Assembly: GCA_963965975.1 (NCBI GenBank) | Contig: OZ014411.1 | Coordinates: 27,328,249 to 27,392,248 of the forward strand | Reading direction: 5' to 3' | Source: Xestospongia bergquistia | Lineage: Eukaryota > Porifera > Demospongiae > Haplosclerida > Petrosiidae | DNA: 64,000 bases | Shown: positions 36,229 through 61,254 of the stretch, piece after piece | Layout: each line of letters opens with the position of its first letter | Position numbering within the stretch: position 1 is the first letter of the stretch | Made by a program: the position numbers and the translations under genes | The notes under the pieces: model-generated | Databases searched by the model: none | Told to the model about the DNA's origin: nothing | Seen by the model: only the letters and a program-made list of their open reading frames with translations

Positions 36229-38871
36229 TCAATTAATTTTTTTTCTTTGTTGAAGGGTACAATTAACATTATCTTGAGGTTGAGATGTGGTTCTCTGAAC
36301 TGAAATCAATTCATAATCAGGAGGAAGTTGAAAAGTAAATTTTTGAAAAAGACGAGAGAGCAAGAGTTTAGCTTCCATCTAAAATAATGAACAAGTGAAA
36401 ACAAATTTAACAATTGTAACTAACCATTGCAAAATGTTTCTCAATACATGAACGTAAACCAACACCAAATGGAAAATAAACTAATGAGCTAGGTCTAAAA
36501 TAAAATAGATAATTATAGACAATATAATATGAACTATAACATACATCAATTTTAATATTTGTAAGTCATTTAATATACTTACTGTTGTTTATCTGGAGCA
36601 AATCTATCAGGATCAAAGGTATCAGGATCATCAAAATATTTTGACATACGGCAATAACAGTTAGTAGGAACCTGTATTAAAATTATAACTATATAGTATG
36701 TATGAATTATCTACATACACAAATATATGTATTTCCTGGTATGTAATAGCCAGACAATTCAATTCCTTCTTTAGGAGAAGTTTTCATACTAATTCCAACT
36801 GGTGGATGAAGACGAAGAACTTCTTGAATGACCTATATCATCAAAATTAATGTACATTAACACACAAAAAGTGAAACAAACCTGTTCAGTGTACTTTAGT
36901 TTATTGAGATCATCAGCAGTTATAGTATCTTTATCACCTAATACTTCGTCAATCTCAACCAAAAGTCTTGTTAAGTGAAATCAGAGAGCTCTAGTATACA
37001 TGATAACATTTTATACTCACTTTGTCAACACTTGAGGATGTTGAAGTATCATTGCAACAGCAAAAGATAATGCATTAGCAGTTGTCTCATGTCCTTAGCA
37101 ATATAATCAATATAATGTTTATGTAGTGTTCTAAAAATTACTTACCAGCAATAAAGAATGTCATAAAATCATCCACTAATTGTTCAATGTCAGTTGTATG
37201 ATCTGCTTCTACAGTATAAAGTATAGATACACTATTAATGTTTATACCAATATATGCTAGCTTACGTGTAGTCTTTAGTATACAACTTAATATATCATGT
37301 GGTATAGTCTCCCCTCTCTCAATGGATGATATTCGTTTCATTATGCAGTCTCTACCAATAGTACGCACTGCTCTAATAGCCTCAGCATGTTGTCTAGCAT
37401 CAAAAGGATGAAGATACTAGAGAAAGCTTTGAAGTAAACAACATATTTATCACATACTAACTTGATATGGCATCATTAATAGATTAAATTGTTTCTGTAT
37501 TCCACACATTACAGAAACAATCAAAGATCGTATATGTCCATCACTTTTAACTAGTTTTAAACCTAGTTTTTCAGGAGTCCACTCAGAAAAGTCAGATGAA
37601 AACCCAACCTACACCCATATGTCATAATAATCATCAACATTATAAAGTTTACCTTGCTAATAATATCTAATGTAACATTAGACAATTCCAACTTCATTGG
37701 TACTGGAGTCTTTCCATCTGCTGACTTTTGTAATTTCTCAATTAGTGAATCTGCACACTTTACAAAGGAAGGGACAAGTCCCTTGAGAAACCTAAGAGAT
37801 ACATGAACAATTATTTTGCTATAGACTATACATTGTATTAACAATATAGTTTTATTAAATTAAATTGACTATATACTAATTCTTACCCTCTATTAAATGC
37901 TGGATCATAAATCTTTCTTCGTGGTTTCCACTCTTCATTGTCTATGATTGTAAAGAGCCCTTTACCTAATAGTCTGTACAATGAGAAAAAAGATGCCCAG
38001 TACAAGGACTAGCAAAGTTGAACATACCTTTCTCCACATAGATTAATGAACCATTTATAAGCCATGTAAGATTTAGTATATTTGGGATTAGTCAAAAGAT
38101 TCTATAAACAGTAAAATGTACATTAAATAGCAAAGATGTACATACCTTAGCTCCTTCAGCATCCATACACACAACAAGAGGACTAGTGAATAAGAACAAT
38201 ACAAAAACAGGAGGACTACCAGCCATTTCATGGCTAACAATAGAAATAAAAAGCAAGTGAAATCTTTGAATATTTGTTCTATTAACTTACAGTTTTAACA
38301 TGGTATAATTAAATGGTCTATCTTCACCATATTGCTTTCTAGCGTCATTAAAGAATTTTAGGTGACCACCAAAGAAACTGAAAAAAGAATTACAACATCA
38401 GTTATGTAATTGTATCCTTAAAAGACAACTTTAGTAACTTATGAGTAATGGGATTCCATATTATAATAAGAAAATTATATGATATCTTAAACCTTAAGAC
38501 CAAAGATCATAGTAAACAACATCCAATACCAGTTTTTATTGACTCCTACTATTGTTAACATAAAGTACACTAACACTACAAGTAATAGTGATAGTTACAT
38601 CTCTTGTTTAGTATATACATTAAATAATTATACTGTATTATAACAGGATGAATACTTGACTAAATGGCCATGGTGGTACTGACCTGTATAGTGGAGGTGA
38701 TGGTATATGGGAATACTGATGACGTATAAACAATATATAGCAGATAAGAAGAACAAAAGCAAATAGTGTCACTATTAATACTGAGCTGAGTGCAGTGACT
38801 GCAACTGATATAATAGGAACATCTTGAAGTAGTAACACCTTAAACAGTAATATGTCAGAAAATTTCTCCAT
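36229..38871 (-). CDS. Cytochrome P450, CYP46-like, copy 3 with altered heme motif
   Basis: Same exon plan as copies 1 and 2, ATG 38869-38871 to TGA 36229-36231. The N-terminal anchor, I-helix, ExxR and FDPDRF blocks are present. The heme loop reads GLRSCIEKHFA: the Gly two residues after the heme-ligand Cys, nearly invariant in P450s (FxxGxRxCxG), is Glu, caused by a single base at about 36441 (CTC for CCC on the plus strand). No stop was noticed elsewhere. It could be a recently inactivated copy, a variant allele, or a functional divergence. Upstream sequence (38930-39190) matches that of copy 1. Confidence 0.85.
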
Positions 38872-38879
38872 TATAATTT

Positions 38880-39415
38880 GAGTGTAGTGGTACTGAGTAT
38901 TTTCTCGGAAAAACAGTAAGTGGTAGTGTACTAGTATTATGCCTTATTTATACTGAGTTATTTAACTAATTCATCCAGAACATCACGCAATACCAGTAAG
39001 TATTTCATTCACACGTATATATCAGTAACAACTGATGAAACAACGACACTGATGCAACTTCCTGTATTAATACTATTTCATTGCAAAGCTCATATCCAAG
39101 ACAACACTAGGCCTGCCCACTCAAGGAAGTAATTAAGACGTCTCATCCGGTATACTTTGCTGCAGGATGATAGATATCAATATCTAGTAAGAAAAACCAG
39201 TGGCTTGAGAAAAAAAATGATATTATACATGTATATTACATAATACATAATTGCTATAATTATATTGTAGGCATGAAAAATATTTTTTGTATAATTGAAA
39301 TTGAAAATGTTAGAACAATACTAAAGTTATGGCAAAAATAACAGAAAACAATGCATCTCATTTTTCATATATGCAAAAAAGTTCTATGGATCATGTATAC
39401 ATGTTTATGTAATTA
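38880..39415. promoter_or_regulatory. Upstream region of P450 copy 3 and spacer to NLR
   Basis: 38930-39190 is homologous to 29716-29960 upstream of copy 1. Homology ends near 39190, marking the right edge of the duplication. 39200-39415 is AT-rich and likely includes the NLR 3' UTR. Confidence 0.55.
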
Positions 39416-42400: not shown

Positions 42401-43959
42401 TGTTAACTCAGAGCTCTGTCTCTGTATGCCATAGTAATCAGTCTTACTTTGTGTAGTAACAAGTACTAATTTTCCAAAATAAGGTCTACCTACTTGTGGT
42501 GGCCATTCTGATTGTACAATCTGCATACCTTTATATCTTTGTTTAATAATTTTAATATATTCTAAAACCTCAGAACCAGGATTACTGAAGGCTAACTCAC
42601 CATCTGTCAATAATCAATGAAATATAATACATATAAATGTAGAAGTGATATGCAAATTATGAGTACCTTGTTGGGAGTAGTCATGTTTCAACTCACTAAC
42701 CAACTTGTTAATTTCAATTGTGTTTAGCTCTTCCATAGCCTCAATAAATTTGACAAATGCTCTCTCTTCATTTTTGACAGCACTTCTAACATCAGTCATC
42801 ACTCTGTCAAGACGTTGCCTTTTTGTTTCATGAGTATATCGATCAATTATATCTTCATGCATTTGTTCATTTAAGACACCTTTAGAAAATAGCTTTCTTG
42901 CTATGTCTGGTGGTTCCATATTACATGACACAATCTTATCTGTATATTGACATAAAACAACGTAGGCTGGATTATCTTCTGCAAAAGATTAAAACATTGT
43001 CAAAACAATGAAAATTGTTATATACGCATAAATATGTGTGGGTATAGTTACAATGTAGAAATTACAAAGCACATCAGCTTTGAAACAATCATGTGGAGAG
43101 CTAGGAAATAAATTAATTTTCAGCTAGTATGAGCTATCTGTAACTTGTGACTACATCATTTCATCTACATGAAATAAATTTGTCTGTGCAAATGTTTACA
43201 CTTTCTGTGAGTAAATGTTTGTAGCTTAAAATATGCTATGTGTCTTTAAAAGCTCAACAAAACTGGTAATGTAGTCTGTTGATTCTGTTTTTCAGAGATA
43301 ATTCTAATATGTCAATCTTAAGCCCAAACGTTCAACAAGCAATCTTACAAAACCTTATAAATATAAATACATTAGAATTAGAAAATCATAGATTCATTAT
43401 TTGTTTAAAACTATTTTGTCAATTCATAAAACAAAAAGATATATACACACATGCACATCTACTACATATCTCTCACACAAACAACTAAGGACAAATCATT
43501 GAGGTTGATTTCTGATGTCGGAATCTTCTGTCTTAATTGAAGAAAACCCCCGACTCTTCAACATATGACAACAAAACACTCATACTATCATCAGTTGAGT
43601 TCATATATAGCTAAAAAGCATTTAAAATGTTAAAACCACTTGGTATTGAACAATTTCATTTATGATTATTACACAGAACCCAATAGCTATTTAGTTCTAT
43701 AGACATTGCTTCACGAAGAACTGGTCCTAAATACAAATAACATATTATACATACCTCCAGTTCGAGGTCCTGGATTGAGTTCAATGTCACCACAAGTCAG
43801 TAATAACAACAGAACAATAACTCTTATAATAACAGATGAGTTGACAGACCAAGTTAACTGACTATTACTTGTGGGAATAAATATAGGTCTACTTCTGGTA
43901 GTAGGACTGACACCATTCCAGCCTCCAATACGAGCTCTCCATTGAATAAGACCAATCAT
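39416..43959 (-). CDS. NLR: 2A-like N-terminal peptide, CARD-like domain, NACHT, long C-terminus
   Basis: Three exons join exactly in phase: 43755-43959 (68 codons +1), 42667-42978, 39416-42603, giving about 1234 residues. Residues 43-54 are a hydrophobic run (VIIRVIVLLLLL) leading to CGDIELNPGP, which fits the 2A consensus D-[VI]-E-x-N-P-G-P; ribosome skipping would fall between G64 and P65. Residues about 70-165 form an all-helical CARD-like domain (DIARKLFSKGVLNEQ, ERAFVKFIEAMEEL). The NACHT domain has P-loop GPPGIGKTT at about 274-282 and Walker B FIFDGWDEL near 348-356, then SVIVTSRR and a winged-helix-like FLHLTIQEFLAAWW. The last 650 residues are leucine-rich but lack clean LRRs. An in-frame stop lies three codons before the Met, fixing the start if no upstream exon exists. 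Role: innate immune sensor. Dual targeting through 2A is inferred. Confidence 0.9.
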
Positions 43960-56930: not shown

Positions 56931-59379
56931 TATAGACATTTAGTTCAAGTTACTGTATAAGTTCAAGATACTGTACTTGTAGGGGTTTCATTTTTAGAAA
57001 CATCATTGACCTTATACTTTTAGATAGTATATTTAGTAAGGAATGATGAGTACAAATACAAGGTTAGGTAAAGGAATAATAATTGAGTTTGTTGACAAGA
57101 ATAGCATTGAATATTTAGGATGTTGGTTACTGTGGCATGACTGTGCCAAAAACAGTGCCATGTTCATTCCACCACTCATGTAAATTAGAGATAAAACCTC
57201 CATCTGTGGCATTGATTATTAGAATTAAATACCACTAGTGTAGGTGATGAGGTGCAAACAATACTTGTCTGAAGCAGTCTGATTTAAGACTATTAAGTGA
57301 ACAATTCCTGTATAGCAAACTAACATTACTACAGTACAAGTCAGCTTGCATTGGTAACTCAGTAGCCTATCGCACAAGCTTAAGGCTTCTGTACTTTAGT
57401 GTTCTCACTGTATTAGAAGTCCAAAGTTAATTTGAGCATAATTAAATAGTAAAGCTTTTCATTAATTGATGTCAAGATCCTTTGTGTTGTAACTATGATT
57501 GATACATGTCAATGGAGAATTAGTATTGTGTTATGGTGTCATCACATACCATAAACCATGTGCCAGGCAAGAACTGTGAATGACATGAGATTCGTGACAT
57601 TTATATTACTATGCTAGGAGAAGCTTGAGTTGATCATGTTGACTCTATACTGGTTTTTCTTCTATTATCTCTTCTCATTTGGTCAGGTGATACTGAACTC
57701 TCAATCAATGAGTTGAGATTCTTCACATTTAATTAGAACTGACATCAATAATGCTCTATATCTGCTTGTTAAGAGTAGCTTAATTTGATGTTAAAACAAG
57801 TGGACAGAACTCATTGGTCTTCTTGGTATCTCATTGGAGGAGAAGAGAAGGCGTAAGACAATGACCAGCAGTGATCAAGACCTTTGCTTTAGGGAAGGTT
57901 TAGAGTGGTAGACTACAAACTGTCCTATATATGCCATCATGGGAGAATGTATTTTGCTGTTAAAAACTATGAGACAAAAATATAACCACAAGCTTGAAAT
58001 GTTAACTGAGTAAGTATTATGAAACAAGGTATGGTGAGGTGTACAAGCAGAATATAAGATGTCTTGTTTGTTTTTAAAATAACCTAACACAAGTCAAATA
58101 TTGCATACCCACTTTACTGACCTTATTAATGCCATCACTTCACTCTATATGACACTTTTACACTAATGTTCTAATGCCATTTGAAAGCAGGAATGAATTA
58201 GAATTAACAAGAGGAATGAGAGATTACAAAAAATTAGTAAATATATCAATGAGACAGATGTATTCACATATCAATCCAAAGCAATTTTAGTTGACATTTG
58301 CTGAGTTTTAAAAAATCAGCTTTATTCAAGTGCACAAGTGTTTGCCAACTCTATTAAGTAAGTGAACTAAAGTACATTGTATGATTTGATGAAATTTGTG
58401 ACCATCCACCTAATTCAGTGAACCTGCTGTTTAATGTTACTGTGACCCTATGATTGAGAAATACAAATGCTAACCTATTGTACCAATAGAATGGCCTATT
58501 ATACCAATAGAATGACCACCACTATTTAGAGAAGATTCCTTTGGAAAATTGTTACTGCATCAAGCAAAAGATGGGTATGCAACAAGTTAAACCATGCAGC
58601 AAAAACAGCTATGTATGCTAAGAGACTTTGTTGATGAAATACATGACATTTCACAAGATGATACAGGTATTGTTATATTAGAAATTGTTGCAATTAATCA
58701 TTACATTTCAAAATATCATAAAATGGCCATATAGTTACTATAGTTTCAATAATGACTTAATACGTAGCCAGAACTACTAGTGTAACTCAATATATGAAGC
58801 CATCTATACAGTAATCTTTGTAATTGATTGCTCAATACTTGATACTATTTCAACTAAACTAACTTATAGTTACATAATCACACATAATAAAGCTCTATAG
58901 TACATTATCACATGTTGATTATAATGACATAGTCTGCCAACTGTACATAATTATACAACCAGTTGAAATAACTTATAATATTTACAGTGATATATTGTTA
59001 CATGAACAGTTAATATTATAGTAAATGAAACAGTATTTTGTTCACTTTTTTCATCTAAAAACTTTGCTATATGCAACCTGTATAACCATATACTGGTTAA
59101 ATTAACCAAACAATTTTTATAGTGATATATGCTCTTTAACTTTGTTACCTCATGACAACTACATTACTATATTATGTAAATAGTTTGGATACACTCACAG
59201 AGGCATATGATATATTTCATTCAAATAATGTATATGCTTTTTTGTTTGAATGTGTAATTGAGAAAATAGTTTTATAGCAGTTTAATTTTGAATGCCTTTT
59301 ACCTCTTAGTACTTGTATATTCCATAGAAAAGAACATAATACTATGAAACAGTAGATGGACTACACATGCAAACATATT
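56931..59379. other. Intergenic, nothing recognised
   Basis: AT-rich sequence without a supported gene. A short tandem duplication (ACCAATAGAATG) lies at 58482-58517. No NACHT P-loop or Walker B was found here, although a decayed NLR segment follows. Confidence 0.5.
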
Positions 59380-60000
59380 GAAGTTACAAGGTTTTCAGGG
59401 AATGAAATGGAAGTGGTAGTTAAAGAAATACTCAAAAAACCTTATCTAATGGAAAAGCTTGTCAATGAACTTGAAATGTGATGTGATGTCTTGTCACTGT
59501 GTTATATACCAGATATAGAGTTACCAACATTTATTCTACAAACTACAAGGAGACATATTAAACTCACGTTTACAGCATTGAAACACAAAAGCTTACAACT
59601 TTTACCAAAGGATTTTAAAATAACTTTTGAAATTGGTTTGCTTACTTCAACTTACAGATTCTTTTTTTGTGCGTGTATACATCAATCACTTTATGGGTCA
59701 CTAAAAGAAGACTTTCCAGGACTCATTATGTAGGACTGCATGATGAGGAGAATTACCAGTTTCTTTATTTAAGTATTCATGAATTCTTGCTGCATGGTGG
59801 ATAGTTAAAAATGAAAGGACAGAGAATGTGTTTGCTATGCATTTCCAAATAATGGGCACTGACTACAAACAGATGGAAGAGTCCAAATTAGAAGAATTTT
59901 GTTCCAGTATTGCTACATTTCATGCAGGTATTAAAAGCAGTTATTTTCAACTGGTCTCTTTCATCACAATACCACTCTACATGAGTTGAGTGTATCTATT
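59380..60000 (+). pseudogene. Decayed NLR (NACHT C-terminal part) fragment
   Basis: Successive frames match the region after Walker B of the intact NLR at 39416-43959: KHIEVTRFSGNEMEVVVKE, KKPYLMEKLVNELE, then after a stop VLSLCYIPD, FILQTTRRHIK, EDFPGLIM and, after a frame shift, ENYQFLYLSIHEFL. The order is the same as in the intact gene (KHIEVLGFKMSEIE, DVRSLCYVPYV, EDFFGLITMF, YQFLHLTIQEFLAAWW). Several stops and shifts make it non-coding. It lies about 16 kb from the intact gene, in opposite orientation. Confidence 0.75.
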
Positions 60001-61254
60001 CATTCCACTGTTTGTTACTAGAAATTAATAGATGAGGAATTTCTTCAATGTTATTTCTGACAAAGGAAACCATATAAAACTTAAATATCCATCATTTATA
60101 TCTAGTGATAAAGGTGAAATTATGATAAAATTGTTCTATGAGCAAGGATAAGTTTCATTTATGATACTCATATGTTGAGGTCACATAAAACTTTGAACTT
60201 TTAAAACTAGAGTACAGACTTTTATTTATACATTATTACTCGACATGAATGACAGATAAGGCAAAAGGCTGATTGTCTTCCTCCATCCTTCCCTTGAGCA
60301 TGCTTGTATCAACCTTATTATAACTTTTGTGCTGTTTATCATGGAGAATATATACTACTCACAAGAGCAAACATTAATTGAGAAGCATAAACGACAACAC
60401 CCACTCCAACCTTTGCTTAAAATAAGTGTGTCATATGACTCATTTGAAAAAAAACAACTAATCTTATGAGGAAAAAGCAGAATGTGCTGAAAGGATAGTT
60501 TGTTATCTTATGAGTCATTGTTGTGTCATGATTTTAACTATATATGCTGTCTGCTATGTAGGATATATCATTATCAATGTTTTCAAAGTGGGTGTATGAC
60601 ATCCTTTTTAGTTTATGGTAGTTGTTTGTAATAAGAATGACTATACAGTTTCAGGATGTACACTGAGAGTAAATAGGTTTCCTAGGGATTAGGGTACATT
60701 TTTCAGTGAGATTTACTCACTACATTCTAACATTTGAGTAATGCTTTTATCGATTCCCAGGTATAATAATTTTATCAAATTAAAGCTAGATTGTTTTAAA
60801 TCATAGTTGTTATGGTTGGTGGCAGAGACATAGGTTTGCCTACAATCAGTCGTGATATATCTATTCTGGTTTCTAGTCTCAGGCCTAGGATGACAATGTG
60901 TGGAGTAACTTTGACTTTATATACTTAGCTGAGATCAGATGTTCTCTGCATAGGTTATACTTATTATTCTAAACGCCTATATAGTGCTAATCAGCACTAA
61001 TCTAAAAAAACCATCTATGAGTTCACTGGCTAGCCTGTGCATTAGTTATCAATGTGGGGTACTGTACAAGCTGTATTAGGGGATGAGCTTCATTATTACA
61101 ACATTCATACAATTCTACATACCTGGTTACATGGAGGCACCAATATACCGAAAATACCGCATACATTTATATTATCCGTTATCTTGTGGGAAATATTTTA
61201 TCATCAGTGGGAAGGTGTCAGTCGGTAATTACTGATTGGTACTGGAGAGAGAAG
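60001..61254. other. Intergenic and SHOC2-like upstream region
   Basis: No gene recognised. The last 200 bases should hold the promoter and 5' UTR of the following gene. The frame before the chosen start is open to 61186 but contains no ATG. Confidence 0.5.

Follow-up and report, generated by a model that had tools for sequence, protein, structure and literature searches.

A putative StopGo/2A leader exon at the front of NACHT and other receptor genes of the sponge Xestospongia bergquistia

In sea urchins, leaders of SpNLR receptors carry a 2A sequence, and for one such leader partial release by this sequence was shown to divide the receptor between the cytosol and the exocytic pathway (Roulston 2016, PMC4981915). 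According to the available excerpts of that paper, these leaders are 26 residues long with a signal peptide predicted in 12 of 14, recoding of about 80% in vitro was estimated for one of them, and sea-urchin 2A-like sequences fall into two main categories, NLRs and non-long-terminal-repeat (non-LTR) retrotransposons. Excerpts of two papers present the cellular use of 2A as rare and cite the sea-urchin NLRs as an example (PMC12846837, PMC4981915). Here we describe a 2A leader in the first exon of a NACHT gene of the sponge Xestospongia bergquistia, located in a stretch of 64,000 nucleotides (the window; GCA_963965975.1, contig OZ014411.1, positions 27,328,249 to 27,392,248) for which a preliminary description existed. 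From the sequence, we consider it highly probable that the coding sequence of an NLR-like NACHT receptor starts with this exon, that the exon encodes a StopGo/2A leader, and that it constitutes a phase-1 5' cassette under selection.

The leader exon and its receptor gene

The features of the gene are the following:

43959-43755, minus strand: exon 1 (leader and first body residues), 205 bp, donor GAG/GTATGT, phase 1
43918..43959, minus strand: N-terminal motif MIGLIQWRARIGGW, the local form of M-I-[D/G]-x-x-Q-W-R-x-x-I-G-x-W (pattern match C1:27372185)
43789..43845, minus strand: hydrophobic segment adjoining the 2A core, 19-residue Kyte-Doolittle mean 2.16 (the window leader is locus L014)
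43788-43765, minus strand: 2A core DIELNPGP, with the missing Gly-Pro bond expected between its final two codons
42978-42667, minus strand: exon 2 (CARD-like helical domain), acceptor TTTTGCAG; sub-threshold CARD, low-confidence helical model
42603-39416, minus strand: exon 3 (NACHT and C-terminal region, including the stop codon); no Pfam leucine-rich repeat

The start codon is the first ATG past an in-frame stop that sits two codons upstream, exon 1 encodes MIGLIQWRARIGGWNG...VIIRVIVLLLLLTCGDIELNPG/P, and the three exons join in phase into a protein of 1234 residues, with the splice joins read from the sequence. This gene model agrees with the preliminary description in the exon coordinates (43755..43959), the in-phase 43755/42978 splice, and the length of the leader, 64 residues counted to the Gly of CGDIELNPG/P; the hydrophobic run followed by the full core CGDIELNPGP was likewise found where it had been placed, at the front of the gene. 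The 2A shares its reading frame with the coding sequence before and after it. In the leader, 38 residues stand ahead of the hydrophobic window, and the hydrophobic segment contains one Arg, with a net charge of +4 on its N-terminal side.

The core fits the StopGo/2A pattern (D/G/C/N)(V/I)ExNPGP, and its upstream context, LLLTCG, is an L-rich hexapeptide ending in (A/S/C)G, the type that goes with p12 = D in the available text of Li et al. 2026 (PMC12846837). Judged by the same text, the D-I-E-x-N-P-G-P core and the hexapeptide LLLTCG resemble the viral L-rich classes 2 and 6; unlike the viral sequences, the 2A is here in a cellular gene, at the N-terminus, and has L instead of the favoured S at p15.

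A NACHT domain (PF05729) was detected by Pfam at residues 269-422 (E 1.9e-23). It had been proposed to follow a CARD-like exon; CARD was the top Pfam match of exon 2 but fell under the cut-off (17.9 bits vs 23.9, E 0.0032). A sub-threshold CARD was also found in the corresponding exon of the close paralogue L015, which has the same exon 1, and in pieces of two Amphimedon queenslandica proteins. The AlphaFold2 model of exon 2 was all-helical but poor (predicted local distance difference test, pLDDT, 60.6) and the fold search was uninformative, so the CARD label rests on the sub-threshold sequence matches. Since no leucine-rich repeat family was found in the protein by Pfam at E <= 0.01, the term "NLR-like NACHT receptor" is safer than the original "NLR gene".

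The gene shares with SpNLR2A of Strongylocentrotus purpuratus, as far as the excerpts of the sea-urchin paper describe it, the placing of a 2A at the start of a NACHT receptor, a hydrophobic context, and an expected split into cytosolic and fused products. The likeness to sea-urchin NLRs that had been pointed out before is therefore correct for the N-terminal 2A ahead of NACHT. However, the 64-residue leader does not correspond to a signal-peptide leader of 26 residues, and it is more than a longer signal sequence: the leaders of this genome have 61-77 residues, carry a conserved N-terminal motif, and also precede bodies other than NACHT, as described below.

Leaders across the genome

The codon pattern for DxExNPGP gave 164 matches in the 146-Mb genome. 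The reversed pattern gave none, which rules out a chance match as the source of the core. The 162 sites that were placed comprised 95 D-I-E, 66 D-V-E and one D-D-E. We counted 95 NACHT matches, a lower bound since 103 of 156 candidates were scored, and found that 48 of them have a 2A on the same strand at 6 kb or less upstream, 765-4005 bases off, while the mirrored position on the opposite strand holds a 2A in none of the 95. A same-strand 2A was also present within 6 kb downstream of 20 NACHT matches, as tandem arrays would produce. For 114 of the 162 placed 2A sites, no NACHT match lies within 6 kb.

The flanks of 1.5 kb on each side were read at 60 of the 162 sites and allowed us to classify by sequence 44 loci as host-type and 15 as retrotransposon-type, with one (L012) in neither class. 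The retrotransposon-type copies (L002, L009, L024-L033, L036, L037, L040) have an L-rich 2A, in most of them followed by a PHD-finger-like stretch; when four of the 15 were scanned by Pfam, a PHD finger after the 2A scored above the cut-off in L024 and L040 and below it in L028 and L036. In the host-type loci the N-terminal motif is recognisable in 37 of 44 (36 different sequences), and GT starts at the eighth base past NPGP in 38; in L015 and in the gene of the window the GT comes one codon later, which leaves the phase unchanged. Among the 44 host-type loci of 3 kb, 29 have a CARD-like or death-type exon after the leader, vs none of the 16 others; the type seen in L069 and L073 is death-like by eye. 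The host leaders (n = 36) are 61-77 residues long, with a median of 72 to the Gly, and each of them has exactly one hydrophobic segment. The 19-residue mean exceeds 1.6 in 35 of the 36, and the median of its maximum is 2.35 vs 1.56 in 12 retrotransposon-type copies, although the groups overlap; the median uncharged run is 15 vs 10, also with overlap. An L-rich run alone does not prove targeting, because the retrotransposon-type copies also have one before the 2A.

2A sequences of non-LTR retrotransposons have reportedly been the subject of work by Odon et al. 2013. The host leaders share with such elements the core and the L-rich context, and copies of this kind exist in the genome; it could be argued from them, with their similar L-rich 2A and PHD-finger-like stretch, that the leader is a functionless fossil of a captured retrotransposon 2A. 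We regard this as very improbable. None of the retrotransposon-type copies has the MIxxxQWR motif or a death-fold exon at 1.5 kb or less, and L009 is the only one among them with a GT where the host exon ends. Moreover, purifying selection acts on the host leaders, and the core is lost mainly in broken motif-bearing copies, as detailed below. The leader may have originated by capture of a retrotransposon 2A; a lack of function is unlikely. As for the window gene itself, a plain retrotransposon remnant was ruled out: Pfam found no retrotransposon domain (PHD, endonuclease or reverse transcriptase) in the protein, the CARD-like exon and NACHT come after the 2A, and the leader is different.

A DNA pattern for the N-terminal motif, which does not include NPGP, matched the genome 130 times, and its reversed version 0 times. 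In 102 of the 118 placed motif sites (the other 12 were not among the matches listed) an exact 2A occurs 165-210 bases downstream, always at a distance that is a multiple of three. Reading the remaining 16 revealed 12 broken copies, one chance match to the pattern (L085), two intact leaders with the G-variant core GGVELNPGP (L079, L080), and one open leader whose core is damaged (L095). Stops, frameshifts or a lost 3' part characterize the broken copies, namely 11 elsewhere and one in the window. From this reading, among motif-bearing copies, loss of the 2A is almost confined to the broken ones. Starting instead from a pattern for ILSGD[V/I]E, 88 of the 100 sites listed (of 125) run into NPGP. 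Among the 12 that do not, L092-L094 have stops in or before the core, C14:894227 lies in L095, L091 is a chance match, two read NYGP, and five were left unread. The latter two (L089, L090) belong to a group of four host-type loci on contig C2, at 1.28-1.36 Mb (with L016 and L017), which have an open upstream stretch without the N-terminal motif; NYGP is present in two of the four.

The broken copy of the window is the following:

57495-60200, plus strand: decayed 2A-leader paralogue, its 3' end set approximately, by eye

It has stops in the leader, the 2A has decayed to GDTELSINE with the frame shifted, and a DEATH-like exon and a body remnant remain, both with stops. Elsewhere in the window, just downstream of the NACHT gene (36400-38900, minus strand), we noticed by eye cytochrome P450-like exons with the heme-binding-like motif FPFGVGLRSC.

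The leader is a cassette formed by the N-terminal motif, a free middle, the hydrophobic segment and the 2A. In six regions of 8.5 kb (L069-L074) it lies upstream of other bodies, to which it would presumably be joined. In L069 it precedes a P-loop GTPase-like frame without a Pfam match, in L070 (by Pfam) and in L071 and L074 (by eye) a long ankyrin array, in L072 a region like ZU5 but under the cut-off, and in L073 a GTPase of the GBP type (E 2e-33) together with ZU5, just over the cut-off. The commonest DEATH-like exon of these sister families folds confidently (pLDDT 85.3), and Foldseek placed solved death domains first with a probability of 1.00, although the best E value was only 0.037. 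The second death-like exon type (L069 and L073) had no convincing Pfam match.

Leaders in Amphimedon queenslandica and selection on the cassette

A search with the window protein yielded 1078 proteins, of which 120 were listed. The named homologues among them are six, all from A. queenslandica and 33-37% identical, too distant for the window to belong to that species; the six carry the 2A leader, and in five the motif begins at residue 1. Neither motif nor 2A is seen in the remaining 114, which are unnamed and of which one (P0001) is only the exon-3 frame of the window gene. A second search, with one A. queenslandica leader including its 2A, found 119 proteins, including a viral one (P0232), with the core in 112, the motif in 99, and both in 96; in P0141, which keeps the motif, the core starts with V (VVELNPGP). 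When another leader search was added, a core was present in the first 300 residues of 113 of the 115 motif-bearing proteins (132 in all), and in two leader searches the nine RefSeq models of A. queenslandica all carry motif and 2A. The presence of such leaders in other sponge receptors, a search for which the preliminary description had suggested, is thus borne out by the A. queenslandica gene models, and the 2A is kept across the family. NACHT is annotated in 60 of the 119 proteins (counted from the precomputed Pfam column of the listing); the non-NACHT bodies include ankyrin, death, nucleoside phosphorylase (P0141 and P0145, A. queenslandica) and BEACH (P0224).

The window gene therefore has in common with the NACHT and death/ankyrin proteins of A. 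queenslandica (UniRef, RefSeq) the N-terminal motif and the 2A leader. The A. queenslandica leaders differ in being mostly longer: in the 97 leaders of this search set the median is 140 residues to the Gly vs 72 here, and the hydrophobic segments vary from 0 to 3, often being two or three. The protein names shown mention no 2A. A metagenome protein (P0244, JGI, 549 residues) has a divergent leader, MIDISLWRAAVG...LLSGDVELNPGP, with SGDVELNPGP; judging from it, the leader design may reach beyond the two sponges.

These proteins also bear on whether exon 1 is joined to the receptor at all. If it were not, or if the true start lay downstream, the 2A would never be translated with the body; the 43755/42978 join is read from the sequence, a Met follows NPGP in many proteins of the A. 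queenslandica type, and model P0169 begins there. Nevertheless, in 33 of the 37 'ena' entries motif, 2A and body lie within one protein, probably as single uninterrupted frames, the A. queenslandica gene models begin at the same Met as the leader, and the phase-1 donors occupy a fixed place. We thus find an unjoined exon extremely improbable.

Selection on the leader was evaluated from the ratio of nonsynonymous to synonymous substitution (dN/dS), by the Nei-Gojobori method, over the 630 pairs that the 36 unique leaders form. These leaders had been picked out with a loose version of the motif, and their middle segment was aligned gap-free from the 2A. N-terminal codons 2-15 had a ratio of 0.23, the hydrophobic stretch one of 0.28 and the middle one of about 1.06, values that are rough because the proportion of synonymous differences in these segments (pS 0.56-0.67) is near saturation. 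The three residues that precede the core gave 0.17 and the core itself 0.10; this last value is biased, since the core pattern had served to find the loci. The useful values are those of the N-terminal and hydrophobic stretches. Purifying selection on the N-terminal motif suggests that the released peptide may have its own job.

The near-saturation and the bias of the core value weigh against the main reading, a StopGo/2A leader cassette kept by selection, and several other observations do so too. Because the query leaders included the 2A, the searches behind the proportions 96 of 99 and 9 of 9 favoured proteins with the core, and two A. queenslandica proteins keep the motif without a standard core (P0160, DVKLNPGP; P0207, no core). 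In the window leader, the uncharged run before the 2A is just 9 residues. Seven of the 44 host-type loci have no recognisable N-terminal motif, and the near-identical L089 and L090, which lack it, read NYGP in an open stretch. The G at the first core position of L079 and L080 is within the expanded motif of Li et al. 2026, but is usually accompanied by other upstream contexts. The leader of L095 is open, yet its core reads DVELKPGP, with a lysine, and one base is missing at the exon end. Finally, 29 NACHT matches on contig C2, in a dense cluster at 8.83-9.15 Mb, have no 2A at 6 kb or less upstream; NACHT genes therefore exist both with and without the leader, and this cluster is a second, leader-free class.

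Proposed function of the leader

The course of translation, the efficiency of skipping and the fate of the products are predictions from the features above. When the ribosome reaches NPG/P, its exit tunnel would contain the D-I-E-L-N-P-G core and the L-rich segment ahead of it, and these would block the Gly-Pro bond. The 64-residue leader would be released and translation would go on, producing a cytosolic body that starts with Pro and comprises the CARD-like domain, NACHT and the C-terminal region. The released peptide would be basic at its N-terminus, which bears the motif, and would have its hydrophobic segment next to the C-terminal DIELNPG. Because release would come while this segment is inside the exit tunnel, the peptide would have to insert into membranes after translation, in the manner of tail-anchored proteins. 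In chains that escape skipping, the body would stay fused to the leader, whose single membrane-length segment would act as an internal anchor and draw the receptor to membranes. The cassette would have spread over several death-fold receptor families, where selection on the N-terminal motif and the 2A would keep it.

A possible reading, to which we give limited credence, is that nothing beyond the sea-urchin model is needed: the leader would be a mere signal or anchor, partial release by 2A would split the receptor, and the motif would serve targeting. Such a division has been demonstrated for the sea-urchin NLR leader (excerpts of PMC4981915). The single hydrophobic segment of the 36 leaders, with a 19-residue mean above 1.6 in 35, agrees with it. 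However, the 14-position motif lies far from the hydrophobic segment and is kept between species while the middle drifts, and the 0-3 segments of the 97 leaders from the A. queenslandica search would alter the topology of the fused body, which makes a conserved, fixed role in targeting the fusion less likely. The constancy of motif and 2A while the number of segments varies is a sign that release of the leader, and not only targeting of the fusion, may be under selection. Since the motif is conserved between species and found before several receptor architectures, the leader itself is probably a functional product.

We tentatively propose, as an idea that may well prove wrong, that these genes are two-protein units. 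The 2A would mainly free a membrane-anchored, tail-anchored-like signalling micropeptide. Its M-I-D-x-x-Q-W-R-x-x-I-G-x-W motif would serve a whole set of death-fold receptors (NACHT, ankyrin, GBP/ZU5) as a common partner or as a licensing element, and the micropeptide would be produced in a fixed ratio to each receptor.

No paper on 2A in sponge receptors was found in the literature searched, judged by its listings apart from the papers cited here, although Rao et al. 2025 (Cell Rep) may describe it earlier. The available text of a paper on Dysidea avara NLRs (PMC12909245) contains neither 'NPGP' nor 'ribosome'; it mentions transmembrane NLRs, first reported in A. queenslandica, and one guess is that 2A leaders could give rise to the transmembrane NLRs reported in sponges. 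As far as these searches go, the new elements are the sponge lineage, the long leader with a conserved motif, and its spread over non-NACHT receptors.

One sponge genome has at least 102 2A sites linked to the motif, and an N-terminal 2A is present in many proteins of A. queenslandica. These genes offer a testable case for an animal immune system in which programmed ribosome skipping would be a standing feature, and a conserved leader peptide is now defined across several receptor types. If the two-protein proposal were true, ribosome skipping would be a general wiring principle of sponge innate immunity.
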